52,540 nucleotides of DNA from a virus, in IMG/VR virus record IMGVR_UViG_3300025703_000007, positions 1 through 52,540 of that record; one strand, given 5' to 3'. Positions within the stretch are counted from its first letter, which is position 1. The number at the start of each line of letters is the position of its first letter. This document shows, one piece after another, positions 21,701 to 40,186 of this stretch. Both the position numbers and the translations under genes were made by a program. The notes under the pieces were generated by a model that saw only the letters and a list, made by a program, of their open reading frames with translations, did not search any database and was not told where the DNA came from.

Positions 21701-22465
21701 ATGACCACACTCATTGCTTATCACAACGACCCTGCAGTCAAAGCGAAGTACACAGCACGTTTTGCTGCGCATCGCGCTGCCGATGAAGTCATTCAAGGGC
21801 AGGGTTTCGAAAATGGCCGCGGATGTTTCGTGGGTTGCACCCTCGATGACTACAAGCACGCGCGTTTTCCGATCGAACTTGGGTGGCCTGAGTGGCTCGC
21901 CTTTCTTGCTGATCGGATCTTCGAAGGTTTACCGAAAAGTGAAGCACCCCAGTTCGGTACTGATTTGTTGGAAGCTGTTTCACCTGGCGTTGATCTCGAA
22001 CCAGTTAAGAACCGATTTCTAGTCACGATTCAACGCCGCAATCTCACACGTTTGGAAGGTAATAACGAACCTTACGCTATCCAGTGCCGCACCACTATTC
22101 AAAGCGTTATTGACTGGCTTCTTTCAAGCGACGAGTCGGCAACGGAGTCGGCGCGGTCGGCGCGGTCGGCAACGTGGTCGGTAGCGTGGTTAGCAACGGA
22201 GTCGGCAACGCGGTCGGCAGCGCGGTCGGCGCGGTCGGCGTGGTTAGCAACGGAGTCGGCAGCGGAGTCGGCAACGTGGTCGGCAGCGGAGTCGGCGCGG
22301 TCGGCAGCGGAGTTGGCGCGGTCGGCAACGCGGTCGGCAGCGGAGTCGGCGCAGTCGGCAGCGGAGTCGGCGCAGTCGGCAGCGGAGTCGGCGCAGTCGG
22401 CAGCGCAAAGAACTGAATCTCAACTACAACGCGATTCGTTGCTTTCAATTATTCGAGCACTTTGA
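21701..22465 (+). CDS. Hypothetical protein with a long Ser-Ala repeat tail
   Basis: A 254-residue protein, [20 protein letters not shown], with AAGGAG upstream. Residues 1-145 look globular and carry a DUF-like block ([20 protein letters not shown]) and a following [16 protein letters not shown] helix. Residues about 146-235 are almost only ESA, RSA, QSA and TWSA units, at the end as exact 7-residue repeats (ESAQSAA). The tail would form an alanine-rich helix. Similar N-terminal domains with variable SA tails occur in other phages; the function is not known to me. Confidence 0.6.
22134..22410. repeat. GTCGGC-rich coding minisatellite, 21-bp units at the right end
   Basis: The stretch is built from GTCGGC-centred units in frame with 21701..22465. 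From about 22335 three consecutive units of exactly 21 bp are identical, coding SAQSAAE. Other frames on both strands stay open only because of this low complexity. Confidence 0.8.
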
Positions 22466-32290: not shown

Positions 32291-33720
32291 AAGACTTCGT
32301 TCCGCGACCGTGGCAGCTTCCAGCAATTGATCACATCCTGAAACACAAGCGCTGCGCCCTTTGGCTACCCATGGGCAGCGGCAAGACTTCAATCGTGCTC
32401 ACGGCACTCGATATCCTCTCTCTGACCGAAGGCGACGTGTGGCCGGCGCTTGCAATCGGGCCTTTGCGCGTCGCGCGCAAGGTGTGGCGGGAAGAGGTTG
32501 CCAAGTGGACGCATACAAGTGGAATTCGTGTGCGTCAAATCATCGGTACTGCAAAAGAGCGCATGGCAGCATTGAATGGCGAAGCCGAGCTTTTCGTCAT
32601 CAACTACGAGAACATCGTTTGGTTCCTGAAGCAGTTTGAAAAGCACCCGTGGCCGTTCAAAACGATCATCCCTGATGAGAGTCGCAAGCTCAAAGCCTAT
32701 CGTATAAAACAAGGCGGCGTGATGACCGCAGCACTCGCAAAAGTCGCGTGGAAATCAGAGCGTTTTATCGAGCTCACCGGCACACCGAGTCCCCTTGGCT
32801 TGCAAGACCTATGGGGGCAACTCTGGTTCTTAGATCAGGGGAAACGATTAGGTCGCACCTACTCAGAATTCGATCACCGCTGGTTCGGCTATAAGCGCGT
32901 GCGAGACGCCTTATCAAAGTCCCCGAGCATCGTAGCGGTGATCCAAAAGGGAGCTGATGAAGAGATCCATGAGCGCGTTAAAGATCTCTGCTTATCGATT
33001 GATTTGAAAGACTATTTAGACATCAAAAAACCGGTGCAACGTTCGGTGATGATCGAGTTACCGGCGCATGCCCGCAAACTCTACAACCAGATGGAGCGCG
33101 AGTTGTTCATCAAGATCGAACAGCACGAAATCGAAGCTTTTTCGGCGGCTTCCAAGACGATAAAGCTCATGCAAATCGCGAACGGCGCTTGCTACTTGGA
33201 TGAAGATGTGATGAACGATGACGACCCACGCGCTCGCGCTTGGAAAACCGTACATGACGCCAAAATCAACGCTCTCGAAAGCGTCGTCGATGAGGCAGGC
33301 GGCACACCGGTACTCGTGGCCTATCAATTCAAAAGCGACCTTGCTCGGTTGCTCAAAGCTTTCCCAAAAGGTCGGCAGCTTAAAACCGAAAAAGACGAGG
33401 ATGACTTCAAAGCCGGCCTTATCCCGATGCTGTTCGCCCACCCAAAAAGTGCAGGCCACGGTATTGACGGCTTTCAAAATGTGACCAGCGTGATCGCGTT
33501 CTTCGGTCACTCATGGGATCTAGAGTTGCGTCAACAAATGATCGAGCGCATCGGCCCAACACGGCAGATGCAGAGCGGTTTTGACCGCTTGGTTTTTGTC
33601 TACGATATCGTGGCCGAAGATACGATCGATGAAGTGGTGCTCGCTCGACACGAGTCGAAACGTGCAGTGCAAGATCTTCTCTTGGACGCTGTGAAAGCAA
33701 AAGCCTATGCCACGCTATAG
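32287..33720 (+). CDS. SNF2-type DEAD/DEAH-box helicase
   Basis: A 477-residue ATP-driven helicase or translocase, MKDFVPRPWQLPAIDHIL. Motif I is LPMGSGKTSI (residues 28-36), motif II is IIPDESRKLKAY (Asp130-Glu-Ser instead of DEAH), motif III is IELTGTPSPLGL, and the C-terminal motif VI region is QQMIERIGPTRQMQSGFDR. Compact SNF2 helicases with a DES box next to VRR-NUC and family A polymerase genes are usual in phages. They probably remodel replication forks. Confidence 0.85.
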   Translation: MKDFVPRPWQLPAIDHILKHKRCALWLPMGSGKTSIVLTALDILSLTEGDVWPALAIGPLRVARKVWREEVAKWTHTSGIRVRQIIGTAKERMAALNGEAELFVINYENIVWFLKQFEKHPWPFKTIIPDESRKLKAYRIKQGGVMTAALAKVAWKSERFIELTGTPSPLGLQDLWGQLWFLDQGKRLGRTYSEFDHRWFGYKRVRDALSKSPSIVAVIQKGADEEIHERVKDLCLSIDLKDYLDIKKPVQRSVMIELPAHARKLYNQMERELFIKIEQHEIEAFSAASKTIKLMQIANGACYLDEDVMNDDDPRARAWKTVHDAKINALESVVDEAGGTPVLVAYQFKSDLARLLKAFPKGRQLKTEKDEDDFKAGLIPMLFAHPKSAGHGIDGFQNVTSVIAFFGHSWDLELRQQMIERIGPTRQMQSGFDRLVFVYDIVAEDTIDEVVLARHESKRAVQDLLLDAVKAKAYATL

Positions 33721-34138
33721 CAGCCTTTTTGACCGCCTACTCGCCAACTCAATCGAGGATGAGAAAACGGGTTGCTGGCTTTGGATCGGGGCTCACCGCA
33801 AAGGTTACCCACGTTTGACGATGCGCCGACCGGGGATATCTCACCCTTCTCGAATTGCTGCGCATCGTGCAATGGCCGAGTTGGTTGTGCAGCGTGTTTT
33901 GCACCCGGTTGAAGAGACGATTGAACACACTTGCCTCAACACTGCTTGTATCAATCCGCTGCACTTCGCACTTGCTTCAAACTCGGAGAACGTAGCCGAC
34001 ATGAATGCTCGCCGCTTTGGCAAGCAACGCAGGGTATTCAAGCCTTTAGTTGACCCGACTCTCTACATCGTTGACCCACTTGTGCGGTCGCTGCCAACGC
34101 TTCGATCCGAAGCTCTCCATCAGGAGTGCCCATTTTGA
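33707..34138 (+). CDS. HNH endonuclease-like protein
   Basis: A 143-residue protein, MPRYSSLFDRLLANSIEDEK, overlapping the helicase gene by 14 bases. CWLWIGAHRKGYPRL, AAHRAMAELV and HTCLNTACINPLHF are the blocks of the HNH family common in phages, with His-Thr-Cys and the final Asn-Pro-x-His. LASNSENVADMNARR follows as usual. It could be a homing nuclease, though no intron is visible, or part of the replication apparatus. Confidence 0.7.
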   Translation: MPRYSSLFDRLLANSIEDEKTGCWLWIGAHRKGYPRLTMRRPGISHPSRIAAHRAMAELVVQRVLHPVEETIEHTCLNTACINPLHFALASNSENVADMNARRFGKQRRVFKPLVDPTLYIVDPLVRSLPTLRSEALHQECPF

Positions 34139-34455
34139 ATATTGATGAACGCTCGCGTTGCCACAGTTGCAGCGCTCCCTTCGGGGGACAACATGCAGTT
34201 AACTGCCTCAGTATGGCTAACGGAATCGAAAGCGCCCCGGCGCTCAGCAAGCAAGAAGGCGGCGACCACTACAAAAAGCTTGCGATCCAACCGATCGAGT
34301 ACATCAACCAAAACGGACTTGGCTTCTGCGAAGGCAACGTCGTCAAGTACGTGACCCGGTGGCGTGACAAGGCCGGTATCGAAGATCTCAAAAAAGCCAA
34401 GCACTACGTGGAATTACTTATCGATTTCGAGACCCGCAAAACCGATAGCACGTGA
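34135..34455 (+). CDS. DUF3310 protein with an N-terminal Cys motif
   Basis: A 106-residue protein. I chose TTG 34135, in TTGA overlap with the upstream stop and eight bases after CAGGAG; ATG 34213 would remove the Cys motif. GGDHYKKLAIQPIEYI and EGNVVKYVTRWRDKAGIEDL are the signature of DUF3310 (nucleotide kinase-like or SaV-like phage proteins). The N-terminal CHSCSAPFGGQHAVNC may bind zinc. The stop lies inside the operator-like site at 34445. Confidence 0.7.
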   Translation: MNIDERSRCHSCSAPFGGQHAVNCLSMANGIESAPALSKQEGGDHYKKLAIQPIEYINQNGLGFCEGNVVKYVTRWRDKAGIEDLKKAKHYVELLIDFETRKTDST

Positions 34456-34468: not shown

Positions 34469-35053
34469 ATGACAACGACAGCCATTGTGCTCGCCAGCGG
34501 CCCTAGTCTCACAGCCGAGCAGATTGCAGCTGCCAAAGCTTCCGGCCATTTCACTATCGTCGTTAACGGCACATACAAGTCGATGCTGGATGCTGATGCG
34601 ATGTACGCAGGCGACTTTCTTTTTTGGAAGATCAATTTCGCTGACGCGATCAAGACTTTCAAAGGCAAGCTTTGGACTCAAGACAACAGCGCTGCAGCCC
34701 GCTGGCCGAAGCTCAACCGCATTCGCGGCACGAACCGCGACGGCCTCGGCAAAGACATGATTCACCTTGGCGGTAACTCAGGCTACCAAGCCATCAACGC
34801 TGCGTACATCTGGGGCTACCGTCGCATCATCCTCCTCGGTTTCGATATGAAGCTCGGGCCAAAAGGCGAGAAGCACCACCACCCTGATCACCCGGCACCG
34901 CTCGTGCAAGCGCAGGTTTTTGGCGAGTGGATTCACAAGATGCAGAAGTTTTCCAAAGACCTGAAAGCCGCAGGTTGCGAAGTGCTCAACGCGACACCGG
35001 GCTCAGCTCTGACTTGCTTCCCGGCGGTTGACTGGCGTGAAGTGCTGAAGTGA
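34469..35053 (+). CDS. Putative sugar transferase, DUF115/GT42-like
   Basis: A 194-residue protein, MTTTAIVLASGPSLTAEQIA. The start IVLASGPSLT, then IVVNGTYKSMLDADAMYAGD, is the nucleotide-sugar site pattern of DUF115 and sialyltransferase-like (GT42) proteins. GGNSGYQAINAAYIWGYRRI and LLGFDMKLGPKGEKHHH complete a Rossmann-like fold with a His cluster that may be catalytic. First gene of an eight-gene coupled cluster. The exact donor and acceptor cannot be read from the sequence. Confidence 0.6.
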   Translation: MTTTAIVLASGPSLTAEQIAAAKASGHFTIVVNGTYKSMLDADAMYAGDFLFWKINFADAIKTFKGKLWTQDNSAAARWPKLNRIRGTNRDGLGKDMIHLGGNSGYQAINAAYIWGYRRIILLGFDMKLGPKGEKHHHPDHPAPLVQAQVFGEWIHKMQKFSKDLKAAGCEVLNATPGSALTCFPAVDWREVLK

Positions 35054-35838
35054 AAGCCGTCCTGCGCCTTCGCAAAGAACCGTATTACCGCCGCGCAGCA
35101 TTCGAAGCCGGGCTCAAGCGTGTTGGCTTCGTACTCACCGAAATGAACGAACCAAACGGCCCCGAAGACTGGCGCGTGGTGTGGAACCGGCAAGGCACAG
35201 AAGAACGCGCATGCGATAAATGGGAAGCAGCCGGCGGCACGGTAATCGTTGCTGAAAACGGCTACCTGCAACAGGTCGACAAGACCTACTACGCGATCAG
35301 TGTGCACGGTCACAACGGCTCAGGCTGGTTCCCCGTCGGTAACGAGAATCGATTTCTCAAAACGGGTTTTCACATCCAACCCGAGAAGCCGATCGTCGGG
35401 TCGGTGCTCGTGATCGGTCAGCGGGGGATAGGCTCCCACGCGATGAAGAGCCCGCCGCAATGGGGCGAGCAAACGCTTAAAGCGATCCAGAAGCTAACCA
35501 AGTTTCCAGCGGTTCTAAGACCCCACCCCGGCAACTTCGCTCCCCGAGTACCGCTTGTCTGCGATCTCGCTAAGGCCGCGCAGTGCGTTATCTGGTCAAG
35601 CGCTGCCGGCGTGCGTGCACTCGTGGAGGGGCTCACAGTTTTCTACGCAGCGCCCCGCTGGATTTGCGAAGAGGGCGCGTACTCGTTCAAAGACATTCCG
35701 AAAGTCATCGATCAATCGAATCTCGGTCGTTTAAGCGCTTTGCACACGATGAGCCATGGGCAGTGGCATCACGACGAGATCACGACCGGCGAGCCGTTTG
35801 CTCGCATCATCGCCCAACGGAGTCGAGCTGTATGGTGA
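35050..35838 (+). CDS. Putative glycosyltransferase-like protein, GT-B type (copy 1)
   Basis: A 262-residue protein starting with GTG 35050 in GTGA overlap. VLVIGQRGIGSHAM, the later FPAVLRPHPGNFAPR and QCVIWSSAAGVRALVEGLTV followed by FYAAPRW resemble the C-terminal nucleotide-binding half of GT-B enzymes and of KpsC/KpsS-like capsule proteins. No signal or membrane segment. The next gene has the same order of features, so they may be distant paralogues acting together. Confidence 0.55.
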   Translation: MKAVLRLRKEPYYRRAAFEAGLKRVGFVLTEMNEPNGPEDWRVVWNRQGTEERACDKWEAAGGTVIVAENGYLQQVDKTYYAISVHGHNGSGWFPVGNENRFLKTGFHIQPEKPIVGSVLVIGQRGIGSHAMKSPPQWGEQTLKAIQKLTKFPAVLRPHPGNFAPRVPLVCDLAKAAQCVIWSSAAGVRALVEGLTVFYAAPRWICEEGAYSFKDIPKVIDQSNLGRLSALHTMSHGQWHHDEITTGEPFARIIAQRSRAVW

Positions 35839-36536
35839 TCAAAACCCACCCCGTCGTTGGTAAAGTCAAGTCAGCCAACATCTGCAAGACCTTCATTGAA
35901 GGCGCACCCCCTGATGCTGAAGGTCACGTGTTCTACGGAGTCAACGAAAGCAACGTGACCGAATGGCGTCAGATAAGAGCCCGCGGTGAGCCCTGGTTCT
36001 ACATCGACAACTCGTTTTTCGACAGCGTTCGAGGCTTGCAATTTCGTGTTGCCAAAAATCGTATCCAGACTTATGTCGGAAGCAAACACTCCGATGGCAA
36101 ACGCTTCACAGCCTTGGGCTTAGAGATCAAGCCTTGGGTTATCCGTCCAGAAGGCTACTCACTTGTTATCGAGCAGTCTCCAAGCTTCATGAAGTGCGTG
36201 GCCGACGACCCAAGCTGGCTAAAGCGTATGTTTGAGCAACTGCCGCGGCCGGTCAAAATCCGTCGCTGGTCTCCCGAGAAACTGCGTCAACAATCTACCC
36301 TATTGAAAGACTTCACGGGAACCAAGATGCTTGTGACGCATTCGTCGGCTGCGGCTGTCACTGCATTACTTGAAGGCGTGCCCGTTGGAGTTTCAACAAT
36401 GTCAGCAATCGCTGAAACTCCAACAGGTACTTCACTCGAACAAAGGCAACGAGTTTTAGGCGTGCTTGCAGACAACCAATTCACCTTAGAAGAAATCAAA
36501 GAAGGGAAAGCATGGGCTTTGCTAAACAAATCGTAG
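35832..36536 (+). CDS. Putative glycosyltransferase-like protein, GT-B type (copy 2)
   Basis: A 234-residue protein from ATG 35832 (MVIKTHPVVGKVKSANICKT), overlapping the previous gene by 7 bases. HVFYGVNESNVTEWRQIRAR and PWFYIDNSFFDSVRG are typical of a family found in prophages next to capsule-like transferases. The second half has MLVTHSSAAAVTALLEGVPV, the same Ser-Ser/Gly-Val-Pro site as in copy 1. Likely the same type of reaction. Confidence 0.55.
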   Translation: MVIKTHPVVGKVKSANICKTFIEGAPPDAEGHVFYGVNESNVTEWRQIRARGEPWFYIDNSFFDSVRGLQFRVAKNRIQTYVGSKHSDGKRFTALGLEIKPWVIRPEGYSLVIEQSPSFMKCVADDPSWLKRMFEQLPRPVKIRRWSPEKLRQQSTLLKDFTGTKMLVTHSSAAAVTALLEGVPVGVSTMSAIAETPTGTSLEQRQRVLGVLADNQFTLEEIKEGKAWALLNKS

Positions 36537-37069
36537 AAGGCTGGTTCTCCACAGACGGGCGTCTTGGCGATCGCACACTCGATCAACAAATGAAGGGCCT
36601 TGGGCCGCTGATTGAGCGCGTGCCGGGCAAGACAGTGCTTGACGTGGGGTGTGCTGAGGGGCTCATCGCGATGAAGCTCTATGATGAAGGCGCCTCAGCC
36701 GTGCACGGGCTCGAGATCGTGCCGGGGCATGCCGCCGTAGCAAACAAGCTCCGCGCTGACCGCGGTTGCACGTTCGATGTTGCTGACGCAAACGCCTATA
36801 AGCCGAAACGCAAATACGACATCGTGATCATGCTCGCGATTTTGCATAAACTGACGGACCCAACCGCGGCTTGCAAACGTTTTGCTTCTGCCGCGCGCGA
36901 GCTTGTTGTGCTTCGGTTGCCGCCGCGCACAGCGCCGGTTATCGTCGACCGCCGCTCGGGTAATTACTCGCATGACATGGAAGCCGCGCTTGAGACATGC
37001 GGGTTTTTTCTCACGCGCAAAACTCTAGGCCACATGGAAGAATGGGTAGGATTTTTTGAAAAGGGTTGA
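36512..37069 (+). CDS. SAM-dependent methyltransferase 1
   Basis: A 185-residue class I methyltransferase, MGFAKQIVEGWFSTDGRLGD, with AGGGA upstream; it overlaps the previous gene by 25 bases. Motif I is KTVLDVGCAEGLIAMKLYDE, the acidic end of strand 2 is VHGLEIVPGH, and KYDIVIMLAILHKL is motif IV. The substrate is unknown; in this cluster a sugar or glycan is most likely. Confidence 0.75.
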   Translation: MGFAKQIVEGWFSTDGRLGDRTLDQQMKGLGPLIERVPGKTVLDVGCAEGLIAMKLYDEGASAVHGLEIVPGHAAVANKLRADRGCTFDVADANAYKPKRKYDIVIMLAILHKLTDPTAACKRFASAARELVVLRLPPRTAPVIVDRRSGNYSHDMEAALETCGFFLTRKTLGHMEEWVGFFEKG

Positions 37070-37071
37070 TC

Positions 37072-37590
37072 GTGTCAAATCTGGTCCCGCTCTACCGTGA
37101 GATGGCCGAAGGCGGGGAGCAGTTTCATGGGCTTTCAATCCTTCAGCACGCCAAGTCAATCGGGCGCCTTCTCAAAGAATACGACGTGAGCACAGTACTT
37201 GACTTCGGGTGCGGCCGCGGAGACGCCTACCGATCGCCGCACAAGCTTCACCATGAGTGGGGGCTCAAGCGTATCGATGTCGCACTCTACGATCCGGCCT
37301 TCAGCCGTCACGATCACTTACCTGAGCGGCGCTTCAGCGCGGTACTCTGCAGTGATGTGCTCGAGCACATCCCTGAAGAGAACGTGAACGACTTCATTGG
37401 TGGCCTATTTAAACGGGCGAAGAGGTTGGTATGGGCGAGCGTATGCTGCCGGCCGGCCAAAAAGACATTCCCCCAGAATGGCGAAAACCTCCACGTCACT
37501 GTGCAACCGCTCGAATGGTGGCAAGAACGTTTCAAAGCAGTGAGTACGTTTTTCCCCGGCATTACTTACGTGCTCGTTGAGACACCGTAA
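37072..37590 (+). CDS. SAM-dependent methyltransferase 2
   Basis: A 172-residue class I methyltransferase. GTG 37072 is chosen because AAGGG lies six bases upstream. VSTVLDFGCGRGDAYRSPHK is motif I, RIDVALYDPAF carries the strand-2 acidic residue and FSAVLCSDVLEHIPEENVND is motif IV with the DVLEH box of small-molecule methyltransferases. Coupled to the genes on both sides. Confidence 0.75.
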   Translation: MSNLVPLYREMAEGGEQFHGLSILQHAKSIGRLLKEYDVSTVLDFGCGRGDAYRSPHKLHHEWGLKRIDVALYDPAFSRHDHLPERRFSAVLCSDVLEHIPEENVNDFIGGLFKRAKRLVWASVCCRPAKKTFPQNGENLHVTVQPLEWWQERFKAVSTFFPGITYVLVETP

Positions 37591-38346
37591 GTGGGCATCG
37601 GTGATGAATTGATGGCCGCAGGTGAAGCACGCTTGCGTCATGAAGCTACCCTCCTGCCCGTGGTGATCGTCGACCGCCACGGGCGTCCCCGTTGGTCTGA
37701 AGTTTGGGAGAACAACCCTTACATTCTTCGCTATCGGCCACCTGGTGCGCACAACACGCTTGTCAATGGAGGTGGCGTACGGCCCTACATCGTTGGCAAA
37801 GGTGTCACCAAATGGTTTTGGAAAAAATACAAACCGATACCTGCTGAATTTTTCTTCACCAAGGCTGAGCTTGCTTTTGCAGAACCTTACCGTGGCTCAA
37901 TCATGATCGAGCCCAGCGTCAAAGCGGTCGGGCACGATAACAAAGCGTGGCTGACGGACCGCTGGAATTATCTCGCGCATGCCATTGCAATTGACATGAA
38001 ACAGCGGATTGTGCAATGTGTGCCAAGCGGTCATGCCACGTTGCCAAACACTGAAACCGTGTTGACCCCAACATTCCGGCTTGCTGCTGCTGTGCAGTCT
38101 GTTTGTGCAGCCTACATCGGCACTGAAGGTGGCTTGCATCACGCGGCAGCGGCGAATAAGACGCCAGCCGTTATTCTTTGGGCAGAGTTTATTGACCCAA
38201 GTATCACGGGATACACTACGATGATTAACCTGCGGCACGCTCACAAGGTGTGTGGCTACCGCGTACGTTGTAGCGGGTGTCGGAAGTCGATGGAAGCGAT
38301 CACAGTAAGCGAAGTGGTCAGTGCTTTAAAGAGGATTTTGAAATGA
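37591..38346 (+). CDS. Putative glycosyltransferase, GT9 (heptosyltransferase)-like
   Basis: A 251-residue protein, GTG start directly after the previous stop (MGIGDELMAAGEARLRH). The start 'GIGDELM..GEA' is the N-terminal glycine loop of GT9 enzymes. The second half (FRLAAAVQSVCAAYIGTEGG, then LHHAAAANKTPAVILWAEFI) is their donor-site pattern, where a His and Glu/Gly contact the ADP-sugar. It is shorter than bacterial heptosyltransferases, which have about 330 residues, as is common for phage versions. Confidence 0.6.
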   Translation: MGIGDELMAAGEARLRHEATLLPVVIVDRHGRPRWSEVWENNPYILRYRPPGAHNTLVNGGGVRPYIVGKGVTKWFWKKYKPIPAEFFFTKAELAFAEPYRGSIMIEPSVKAVGHDNKAWLTDRWNYLAHAIAIDMKQRIVQCVPSGHATLPNTETVLTPTFRLAAAVQSVCAAYIGTEGGLHHAAAANKTPAVILWAEFIDPSITGYTTMINLRHAHKVCGYRVRCSGCRKSMEAITVSEVVSALKRILK

Positions 38347-39020
38347 AAAAAATAGGCGATTGGTACTGGCCCGATCACGAACGTCACCTCATCGACTGGA
38401 TGGCAGCACCGAAGAACAAAACCGTGATTCTCAACGGCCGCATCGCTTATCAAGGCCGCAAGCAAATTCTCGCGCTCGATCAAATCCCCGGCGATCGCCG
38501 CCGCACAATGATCGACGTGGGCGCCCACTCGGGAACCTGGTCCTACAACTTCGCGCATTGGTTTGATCACGTCGAAGCATTCGAACCTGTGATTGCCCAC
38601 CGCGAATGTTTTGAAGCCAACACAGCACCCGTCAAAGGCAAGATCACGCTGAATCCGTTCGCGCTTGGGGACCGCGGCGCAATGGTCTCAATCGTGACTG
38701 AAACCGGCAGCAGCGGCAATTCAATGGTCTCAGTGTCCGGCAAAGGCACTGTCGAAATGCGCACACTCGACAGCTTCGAATTTCAGGATGTCGACTTCAT
38801 CAAAATTGACGTTGAAGGCTACGAGGAATTTGTGCTGCGCGGAGCTGAGCGCACGATTAAAAAATGGAAGCCGGTGATTTGTGTCGAGCAGAAACGCGAC
38901 ATGTCGATGCGCTTTGGTCTCAAACAACTCGGCGCGTTGAAGTGGCTTTACACCCTAGGAATTGGTTACGAAACCGTGGCCGAAAGCTCAGGCGATTTCA
39001 TTCTCAAGGTGAAGGCATGA
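38343..39020 (+). CDS. FkbM-family methyltransferase
   Basis: A 225-residue protein from ATG 38343 (MKKIGDWYWPDHERHLIDWM) with GAGG upstream. RRTMIDVGAHSGTWSYNF, EAFEPVIAHRECFEAN and VDFIKIDVEGYEEFVLRGAE are the diagnostic blocks of the FkbM family, which methylates sugar hydroxyls in antibiotics and polysaccharides. That supports a glycan as the product of this cluster. Coupled by ATGA to neighbours. Confidence 0.85.
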   Translation: MKKIGDWYWPDHERHLIDWMAAPKNKTVILNGRIAYQGRKQILALDQIPGDRRRTMIDVGAHSGTWSYNFAHWFDHVEAFEPVIAHRECFEANTAPVKGKITLNPFALGDRGAMVSIVTETGSSGNSMVSVSGKGTVEMRTLDSFEFQDVDFIKIDVEGYEEFVLRGAERTIKKWKPVICVEQKRDMSMRFGLKQLGALKWLYTLGIGYETVAESSGDFILKVKA

Positions 39021-39718
39021 GAGTTTTCATCGGTCACGATGAACGTGAAGCCGAAGCTGCTGAAGTCGCAGCGAAGAGCTTGCGCAAAGTCACTCACGGT
39101 GAGATCGAGCCTGAATTCTTGTGCATGCCTAAGCTCGTTGCACAAGGTCTCTTGAGCCAGCGCGTTGTTGACCAACGAGATGGCCAAGATTACGACCTTG
39201 CGAGCAACGCGCCGCAGTCCACGCGCTTCGCAATCTCACGCTTCTTAACCCCGGTCATTTGCCAAAACGGCCTTGCGCTCTTCGTCGATGCCGATGTAGT
39301 GTTTCTAGAAGACCCGCGCAACATGTTGTGGGGCGTCACCGCTGAGCATGCGGTGGGCGTTGTGCAGCACAGTCAAGGTACTGTCACCCCCTACAAAATG
39401 GTCAACCAGGTGCAGACCTCTTATGCCCGAAAAAATTGGTCGAGTGTGATGCTTTTCAACTGCGATCACGCGGCTAATCGACGGCTGTCACTGCGTGACA
39501 TCAACGAACGCCCCGGCCGCGACTTGCATGCGTTTTACTGGCTGCATGACCACGAGCTCGGCAACCTTGCGCGTTGCTGGAATTGGCTCGTAAACGTAGA
39601 ACCGAAACCAGACAACGGAGTCGGTGTCGCGCACTTCACGCTCGGAGGACCGTGGCTTGAAGGTTGGAAAGGCGCACCGCATGACGATATGTGGCTTGCT
39701 GCTAGGGATGCCCTATGA
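39017..39718 (+). CDS. Putative glycosyltransferase, GT-A/GT8-like
   Basis: A 233-residue protein, MRVFIGHDEREAEAAEVAAK. The N-terminal 'RVFIGHDERE..A..V...S' and the DxD box ALFVDADVVFLEDPRNM, which binds the metal and nucleotide sugar, identify a GT-A fold. Further features are STRFAISRFLTPVICQNG and a C-terminal VAHFTLGGPWLEGW block. Last enzyme of the cluster. Confidence 0.75.
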   Translation: MRVFIGHDEREAEAAEVAAKSLRKVTHGEIEPEFLCMPKLVAQGLLSQRVVDQRDGQDYDLASNAPQSTRFAISRFLTPVICQNGLALFVDADVVFLEDPRNMLWGVTAEHAVGVVQHSQGTVTPYKMVNQVQTSYARKNWSSVMLFNCDHAANRRLSLRDINERPGRDLHAFYWLHDHELGNLARCWNWLVNVEPKPDNGVGVAHFTLGGPWLEGWKGAPHDDMWLAARDAL

Positions 39719-39960
39719 GCGGCACGTTGCATATTTTCGAGCAGCCTCGCAAGTTGGTCCCTGACCTCGCAAAGCGCTTGCGCGACTTGGCTGACAAGGT
39801 TGACCAAAATACAGTAACGGGGCTCGCAATCGTGTTCGAAACTCAAGACGTCACGCGTTTTATTTACGATGAAGGCGCATCCCACGAAAGCCTCACACTT
39901 GCTGTGATGCTACAACACCATTTGCTCAAAACTATCTTCACCGACGGGGGCGATACATGA
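39715..39960 (+). CDS. Small hypothetical protein
   Basis: An 81-residue protein, MSGTLHIFEQPRKLVPDLAK, in ATGA overlap with the transferase gene. An amphipathic helix (RLRDLADKVDQNTVTG) is followed by strands (LAIVFETQDVTRFIYDEG) and a helix. Function unknown; similar small proteins occur at the ends of phage early operons. Confidence 0.55.
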   Translation: MSGTLHIFEQPRKLVPDLAKRLRDLADKVDQNTVTGLAIVFETQDVTRFIYDEGASHESLTLAVMLQHHLLKTIFTDGGDT

Positions 39961-40157
39961 CCAAACTTACCGCAGCCAAACGCAAAGCGCTTCCAAAGTC
40001 TGACTTTGGACTCCCTGACAAGAAAGCCTACCCAATGCCTGACAAGAGTCACGCGGCAAACGCAAAAGCTCGAGCGAGTCAAGCGGTCAACGCCGGCCGC
40101 ATGAGTAAGAGCACTGAAGCAAAAATCGATGCCAAAGCAAACAAAAAGCTGAAATGA
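39957..40157 (+). CDS. Small basic protein of a common phage family
   Basis: A 66-residue protein, MTKLTAAKRKALPKSDFGLP. 'LT..KRKALPKS.FGLP..KAYPM.DK.HA.NAKARASQ' is a widespread short phage and prophage family of unknown role, with a basic helical C terminus (TEAKIDAKANKKLK). It is the last gene of the plus-strand operon, just before a terminator. Confidence 0.65.
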   Translation: MTKLTAAKRKALPKSDFGLPDKKAYPMPDKSHAANAKARASQAVNAGRMSKSTEAKIDAKANKKLK

Positions 40158-40186
40158 AAAAGCCGCTCGAAAGCGGCTTTTCTTTT
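40157..40186. terminator. Bidirectional terminator between convergent operons
   Basis: GCCGCT (40162-40167) and AGCGGC (40172-40177) form a stem with loop CGAA. It is followed by TTTTCTTTT on the plus strand and preceded by AAAAA, which serves as the T run on the minus strand. It closes both the early operon and the late operon. Confidence 0.8.

Follow-up and report, generated by a model that had tools for sequence, protein, structure and literature searches.

Eight adjacent enzyme genes of a podovirus, here called W1 to W8, are on balance likely to form a transferable cassette for glycosylation of the phage virion. The genes and their neighbourhoods in other phages suggest that the product would be a methylated sugar chain on the virus particle rather than a changed host surface. 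Few phages are known to have glycosylated virions. No described cassette of this kind was found in the open-access literature searched.

Layout of the gene cluster

As listed in Table 1, it was found that W1 to W8 lie on one strand between positions 34469 and 39718 of the window, that is, the whole 52,540-nucleotide stretch of viral DNA analysed here. The ORF coordinates bear out a first-pass annotation that had described eight coupled enzyme genes in this region; the intergenic gaps from W1 to W8 are, in order, -4, -7, -25, -4, 0, -4, and -4 nucleotides. The record had also been assigned to a podovirus, in agreement with its internal virion/ejection proteins, its head-tail adaptor, and a DNA polymerase nearest to those of Bordetella BPP-1 and Burkholderia BcepC6B.

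Table 1. Cassette genes and flanking features, with positions in the window
Feature	Position	Strand	Description
DUF3310 protein	34126..34455	+	PF11753 E 9e-14; ends 13 nt upstream of W1
W1	34469..35053	+	194 aa; predicted GT42/DUF115 (MptE/Maf-like) glycosyltransferase; cassette gene 1
W2	35050..35838	+	262 aa; GT-B, retaining beta-Kdo transferase fold (predicted model)
W3	35832..36536	+	234 aa; GT-B, W2-related
W4	36512..37069	+	185 aa; class I SAM methyltransferase; PF13489 E 7e-11
W5	37066..37590	+	174 aa; class I SAM methyltransferase; PF13489 E 2e-6
W6	37591..38346	+	251 aa; GT9 (heptosyltransferase-like) glycosyltransferase
W7	38343..39020	+	225 aa; FkbM-type (PF05050) methyltransferase
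W8	39017..39718	+	233 aa; GT-A-like glycosyltransferase, invariant DxD (D91, D93)
81-aa ORF	39715..39960	+	4-nt overlap with W8; no assigned function
66-aa ORF	39957..40157	+	Lys/Ala-rich; 4-nt overlap with the 81-aa ORF
Terminator-like hairpin (intrinsic)	40158..40181	+	would close the transcription unit

The window cassette is a continuation of the replication-gene unit. In its podovirus relatives, too, the cassette follows replication genes and lies away from the head genes. It had been suggested that an operator-like site before W1 controls the cassette. This reading is not supported: the 19-mer directly before W1 that was taken as this site has a single copy in the whole window even when as many as 3 mismatches are allowed, and W1 follows the previous gene after 13 nucleotides. 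No operator family emerged from the direct repeats of the early region, and in a promoter scan the promoter-like sites were rarer than in shuffled sequences. Downstream of W8, relatives of the 81-residue ORF were not found among the loci searched, and the 66-residue ORF has a possible relative in one locus (L091). The region has 10 terminator-like sites against 8.4 expected, so that the hairpin is weak taken alone.

Predicted enzymes

In a profile search, W1 matches phrog_4603, named "alpha-2,3-sialyltransferase", at E 9e-38, and PF01973 (MptE-like) at E 1.7e-4, under the Pfam cut-off. PF01973 weakly matches 15 of the 18 aligned members of the W1 family. W1 is like GT42 sialyltransferases and DUF115 (MptE/Maf) proteins in the name of its phrog and in the weak matches of its relatives, but it differs from their solved members: its confidently predicted model (pLDDT 92.7) has zero matches in a PDB fold search at E<=0.001. 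Sequence profiles of W1 hit only weak, biologically senseless PDB entries, which were discarded. PF01973 also takes in a pterin kinase, which, like the lack of a significant PDB match, weighs against the virion-glycosylation reading.

A BLASTP match at E 4e-4 relates W2 to W3, and neither has a firm Pfam family in profile searches. It was revealed that the top 27 PDB fold matches of the W2 model (pLDDT 90) are all KpsC, WbbB, or KrkA, with E values from 8e-7 to 3.5e-5. Thus, the structure prediction proposed earlier as a check gave a Kdo-transferase fold for W2, while it yielded no counterpart for W1. Retaining beta-Kdo transferases have a CMP-binding (K/R)XHP motif and a QXXXD motif with the nucleophilic Asp (PMC10148158, PMC12887879). 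W2 resembles KpsC (GT107), WbbB (GT99), and KrkA (GT140) in its model fold, in the CMP-binding motif (R157-P-H159-P160, nearly invariant among its relatives), and in the Gln of QXXXD and the Ser-Ser. In contrast, W2 has Gly in place of the catalytic Asp (Q124-R-G-I-G128), as do its closest relatives, so that a covalent retaining mechanism should not be taken for granted. A motif check indicated that the HP motif is not kept in W3. The joint W2/W3 profile matches KpsC (E 5e-4), and 6 of the 21 members of the W3 family match DUF6716, a putative glycosyltransferase. KdsA/KdsB-like sugar-donor genes are rare near the cassettes (three loci besides S-SCSM2R), so that these genes lend weak support to a CMP-sugar donor.

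W4 and W5 both match Methyltransf_23 (PF13489), and W5 also matches phrog_24759 (E 4e-20) and has a counterpart in Caulobacter phages. The start codon of W5 is TTG as called, while a GTG a few bases downstream is possible. W6 matches GT9 in Pfam (PF01075, E 0.0013) with a single-sequence score just under the cut-off, and its family profile finds the ADP-heptose LPS heptosyltransferase II (WaaF-type) 1psw at E 1e-9. The likeness to the GT9 heptosyltransferases WaaF and WaaC lies in the profile of the C-terminal donor domain, whereas W6 constitutes a separate family that begins with MGxGD and has three conserved cysteines near the C-terminus (C221, C227, and C230). W7 is an FkbM protein (PF05050, E 2.7e-19, 70.4 bits versus a cut-off of 22.7; phrog_8156, E 1e-27). 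W8 matches phrog_28018 (E 2e-37), whose entry names no function, and has weak sequence matches to GT8/WbbM; both Asp residues of its DxD box are invariant in the columns of the family alignment. The family calls of the first-pass annotation, including the relatedness of W2 and W3, agree with these profile and BLASTP searches, although for W1 the phrog_4603 match is strong and the PF01973 match weak. Its view that the enzymes build and methyl-cap a glycan is supported as a prediction.

Conserved order and linkage to head genes

Is this gene set found in other phages, as the annotation had asked? Each of the eight families has many homologues, and all eight are present in the window order in several loci (L011, L013/L014, L022, L092/L093, and L104). 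Thus, the cassette is more than a chance assembly. The IMG/VR homologues of W2 and W8 were recovered with family alignments; IMG/VR scans with a single W2 or W8 sequence found nothing, and a near-identity DNA search of phage records gave no match. L022, a phage with a different head, has the eight genes in this order after those for its phrog_617 head protein and its portal, and its W8 is 69% identical to that of the window. Six of the families occur as a cluster with a shared orientation in the giant Caulobacter phages of the Dolichocephalovirinae (C1, CcrBL9, CcrColossus, and CcrPW); in contrast to the window, their cassette is without W4 and W7, has W8 elsewhere, and lies between tail-fibre and endolysin genes. 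Beyond phages, chromosomal relatives with non-phage surroundings were found in Pseudomonas luteola (W6 alone) and Verrucomicrobia (W3-W6-W8).

Unlike in the window, the genes are in or beside the structural block in many relatives. In many IMG/VR phages and in Mesorhizobium prophages, the cassette is within the head block beside the major head and portal genes, in the same orientation. The one-strand order MCP-cassette-portal was found in L137, L144, L147, L164, and L166 and, among Mesorhizobium prophages, in L190 and L193. Of 30 GT9-found loci having at least 3 kb on either side, 19 show a head or portal marker within 3 kb, but among GT-A-found loci only 5 of 17 do; these counts ignore kinship, and the markers used cover few head families. 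A scan starting from the head protein, also counted regardless of kinship, found cassette genes in 24 of 39 loci with at least 6 kb downstream, and W1 within 1.5 kb after a head or portal gene in 38 of 80, with the W1 identity confirmed for five. W1 takes the first place in 73 of 74 cassettes and is often the sole cassette gene beside head genes; in phage D3, a W1 homologue lies between the major head protein and the head-tail adaptor. Late-operon positions host unrelated cargo genes as well, which counts against the virion-glycosylation reading.

Candidate targets of the glycan

Host LPS or capsule had been listed as the first candidate target and virion proteins as the second. The comparative gene positions favour the latter, because the cassette lies in head/tail blocks in their orientation, also in prophages, and W1 stands alone beside head genes. 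The part of the former proposal that endures comes from the window itself, where the cassette follows replication genes, so that host-glycan modification is possible. Such a cassette may be expressed well before lysis, and it would alter the LPS core or capsule during infection, which would exclude superinfecting phages or keep the progeny from adsorbing again to debris. The heptosyltransferase-like W6 and the Kdo-transferase fold of W2 are indeed enzyme types of LPS and capsule synthesis. Nevertheless, I consider this explanation unlikely. In relatives, prophages included, the cassette shares the strand of a head or tail block, a position ill suited to lysogenic conversion; in the lysogen, the genes of a late head operon are expected to be off. 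A gtr-type seroconversion cassette has a membrane flippase (GtrA) and membrane-anchored transferases, whereas simple hydropathy found no membrane protein in the cassette, no flippase or polymerase, and no strongly hydrophobic 19-residue stretch in ten proteins (maximum 1.49). Moreover, the cassette is common to Caulobacter and Mesorhizobium phages, whose host surfaces should differ.

The adjacency of the cassette, or of W1 alone, to head and portal genes would be left unexplained if the enzymes glycosylated a host protein, for example flagellin or pilin in the manner of Maf/DUF115 proteins, or made a small host-acting glycoside. This is improbable, even though chromosomal relatives exist and W1 relatives weakly match PF01973, the group to which the Maf flagellin glycosyltransferases belong.

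Glycosylation of phage DNA bases has a precedent: according to an entry among the references of PMC12619734 (Pyle et al. 2024), DNA can carry a variety of glycans added by phage glycosyltransferases. The position of the window cassette after replication genes would suit such hypermodification. However, the record has no match to the thymidylate-synthase family (PF00303), for which the positive control worked; in relatives the cassette goes with head genes, and three of its enzymes are methyltransferases. Thus, the earlier judgement that hypermodification is less likely still holds, and I regard it as very improbable.

For virion glycosylation, I infer the following substrate, donors, order of reactions, and benefit. 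W1 would put the first sugar on a virion protein, which may be a head protein in many relatives and in others perhaps one of the tail. Lengthening of the glycan to a short oligosaccharide would fall to W2, W3, W6, and W8, with host sugar nucleotides as donors; judging from folds and motifs, these may include an acidic sugar activated by CMP and a donor of the ADP-heptose type. The oligosaccharide would then be capped by the methyltransferases W4, W5, and W7. Such a coat may hide the surface of the particle or tune how it adsorbs.

Mycobacterium phages have glycosylated capsid and tail-tube subunits (Freeman et al. 2023, cited in PMC12619734). As far as that citation goes, the likeness lies in phage-encoded glycosyltransferases for head or tail proteins, which are predicted here. 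The present set differs in being a multi-family cassette with three methyltransferases, W1 as the constant first gene, and Gram-negative hosts. A general transferable system can be proposed tentatively, although I would not yet bet on it: a GT42/DUF115-like initiator would glycosylate the major head (or tail) protein, on which further transferases and methyltransferases, where present, would build a methylated, acidic, Kdo-like oligosaccharide, in podoviruses, temperate Rhizobiales phages, and giant Caulobacter phages alike.

The gene set is recognisable and portable, its first gene is fixed, and much of one head-protein lineage carries it. If virion glycosylation is true, likely functions would be given to families now hypothetical, namely W2, W3, and W8 in Caulobacter phages. 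Cultivated phages, and prophages that can be induced, would then allow direct tests of how many phages carry sugar coats, and why.

Organization of the eight-gene cassette

The layout of the complete virus record (52,540 bases) is listed in the table. Its DNA polymerase is closest to those of Bordetella BPP-1 and Burkholderia BcepC6B (about 50% identity), and its terminase to those of Pseudomonas UFJF_PfDIW6 and epsilon15-like phages. The eight genes proposed by the first-pass annotation, W1 to W8, are all present on one strand, adjacent genes overlapping by 4–25 nt or abutting. Only 13 nt separate the DUF3310 gene from W1. Thus, the cassette prolongs the replication-gene unit. Downstream of W8, two more short overlapping ORFs precede a terminator-like hairpin. 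An operator-like site had been placed before W1, but it was not upheld, since the sequence taken as that site occurs without repeats.

Features of the virus record
Feature	Position	Strand
Head, portal and terminase genes	7.8–15.8 kb	minus
GTCGGC-type unit in imperfect tandem repeats, encoding a low-complexity protein stretch (within ORF 21701–22465)	22135–22410	
Exonuclease, SSB, DNA polymerase, helicase and DUF3310 genes	22–34.5 kb	plus
Gene for an HNH endonuclease, located between the helicase and DUF3310 genes	33707–34138	
Cassette W1–W8	34469–39718	plus
Lysis and ejection genes	from 40.5 kb	minus

HNH genes were also found within several cassettes of relatives, making up 7 of the 120 genes inserted there, and they possibly help the cassette spread.

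Predicted enzymes and a putative pathway

Pfam matches identify three class I methyltransferases: W4, W5 and the FkbM-type W7. W6 is a GT9 protein whose family profile matches heptosyltransferase II (1psw, E 1e-9). W8 belongs to phrog_28018 and has a D91xD93 that is invariant across 19 diverse members; its GT8/WbbM matches are weak. The Pfam search assigned no family to W2, and the 27 best matches of its predicted structure (pLDDT 90) are KpsC, WbbB and KrkA. Like retaining Kdo transferases, whose motifs have been described (PMC10148158, PMC12887879), W2 carries the (K/R)XHP motif for CMP, the Ser-Ser pair and the glutamine of QXXXD. In contrast, Gly lies where the nucleophilic Asp of QXXXD is expected. 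Since this Asp defines the retaining Kdo enzymes, a Kdo-type donor is no more than a candidate for W2. W3 is a W2 relative without the HP motif. W1 was placed by phrog_4603 with a weak PF01973 match, and a PDB fold search with its model gave no match at E<=0.001; thus, its activity is the least secure in the set.

Most likely, W1 would prime a glycan on a putative virion protein target, W2, W3, W6 and W8 would extend it from presumed donors, and W4, W5 and W7 may then methylate it, the order of steps being provisional. This pathway is supported by the CMP motif in W2, by the lack of strongly hydrophobic proteins in the cassette, by KdsB-like genes within two related cassettes (L156 and L185), by additional genes for methyltransferase, cytidylyltransferase, epimerase and TylF proteins in some cassettes, and by KdsA/KdsB genes near the W8 homologue of Synechococcus phage S-SCSM2R, which suggest a supply of CMP-Kdo by the phage itself. 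A carbohydrate phosphorylase gene also adjoins that homologue (L004, 5001–8526). Modification of DNA, already downgraded by the first-pass annotation, is indeed unlikely because a search of the record for the thymidylate-synthase family found none.

Distribution among phages and bacterial chromosomes

Most relatives of W2, W6 and W8 in annotated phages belong to giant Caulobacter phages, where a six-family cluster (GT42-GTB1-GTB2-GTA-MT-GT9) is flanked by tail genes and endolysin. IMG/VR holds at least 592 W8 and at least 122 W6 relatives. In the architecture table, all eight families stand in window order at seven loci, of which L013 and L014 are mutual copies and L092 and L093 apparently are too; the most frequent reduced cassette is W1-W8-W6-W4/W7-W3. 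L013 and L014 are of the window's phage type, with helicase before the cassette and ejection proteins after it. L022 is of another type; its eight genes, 35–69% identical and in window order, follow a phrog_617 head protein and portal gene.

A lone W6 relative (46–48% identical) was found in Pseudomonas luteola, P. asuensis and P. duriflava (L171, L172, L173); in P. luteola (L171) it lies among ordinary, unrelated chromosomal genes without other cassette genes. A W3-W6-W8 set is present in Verrucomicrobia bins (loci L176, L177, L178, L179, L188 and L191), one bin being labelled Akkermansia, and is surrounded by ordinary chromosomal genes in L176.

Linkage to head genes and the likely target

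Of the families named, cassette-flanking genes most often match portal, major head, protease, adaptor, tail fibre and tape-measure proteins. Among representative loci whose sequence extends 3 kb or more in each direction, a head/portal marker, built from few head families only, lies within 3 kb in 19 of 30 GT9-found and 5 of 17 GT-A-found loci (raw counts, shared ancestry ignored). Since selection on the cassette was to be avoided, a second search was seeded with the head protein of locus L144 and its relatives. With shared ancestry again ignored, at least one cassette family was found in 24 of 39 loci having at least 6 kb downstream, and at least three in 14, a rate valid for that head lineage only, as the query family itself came from cassette-bearing loci. 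W1 lies within 1.5 kb after a head or portal gene in 38 of 80 head-seeded loci and leads 73 of the 74 cassettes possessing it (shared ancestry ignored in both). In many of these 38 loci no cassette gene besides W1 was seen, but further ones could be missing where contigs are short; five W1 proteins, four of them from solitary genes, were checked and all match phrog_4603. A solitary W1 directly follows a portal-associated gene in many phrog_617-head phages (L228, L246, L263, L271, L285 and similar IMG/VR loci), other cassette genes not being seen nearby. In phage D3, the W1 homologue is flanked by the major head protein and head-tail adaptor genes, with a methyltransferase gene five genes further.

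I lean slightly towards virion glycosylation as the function of the cassette. Such glycosylation is already known from Mycobacterium phages, as cited in PMC12619734; no earlier description of this cassette was found in the open literature, and one may exist beyond that scope. A host protein target is possible. So is modification of the host surface, especially for the lineage of the window itself, in which the cassette belongs to the replication-gene unit. However, the prophages speak against it. In a genome scan, the cassette of Mesorhizobium jarvisii and Mesorhizobium sp. CA8 is flanked by major head and portal genes on a single strand, and that of Bradyrhizobium follows a portal gene. This position fits late lytic expression rather than alteration of the lysogen surface.
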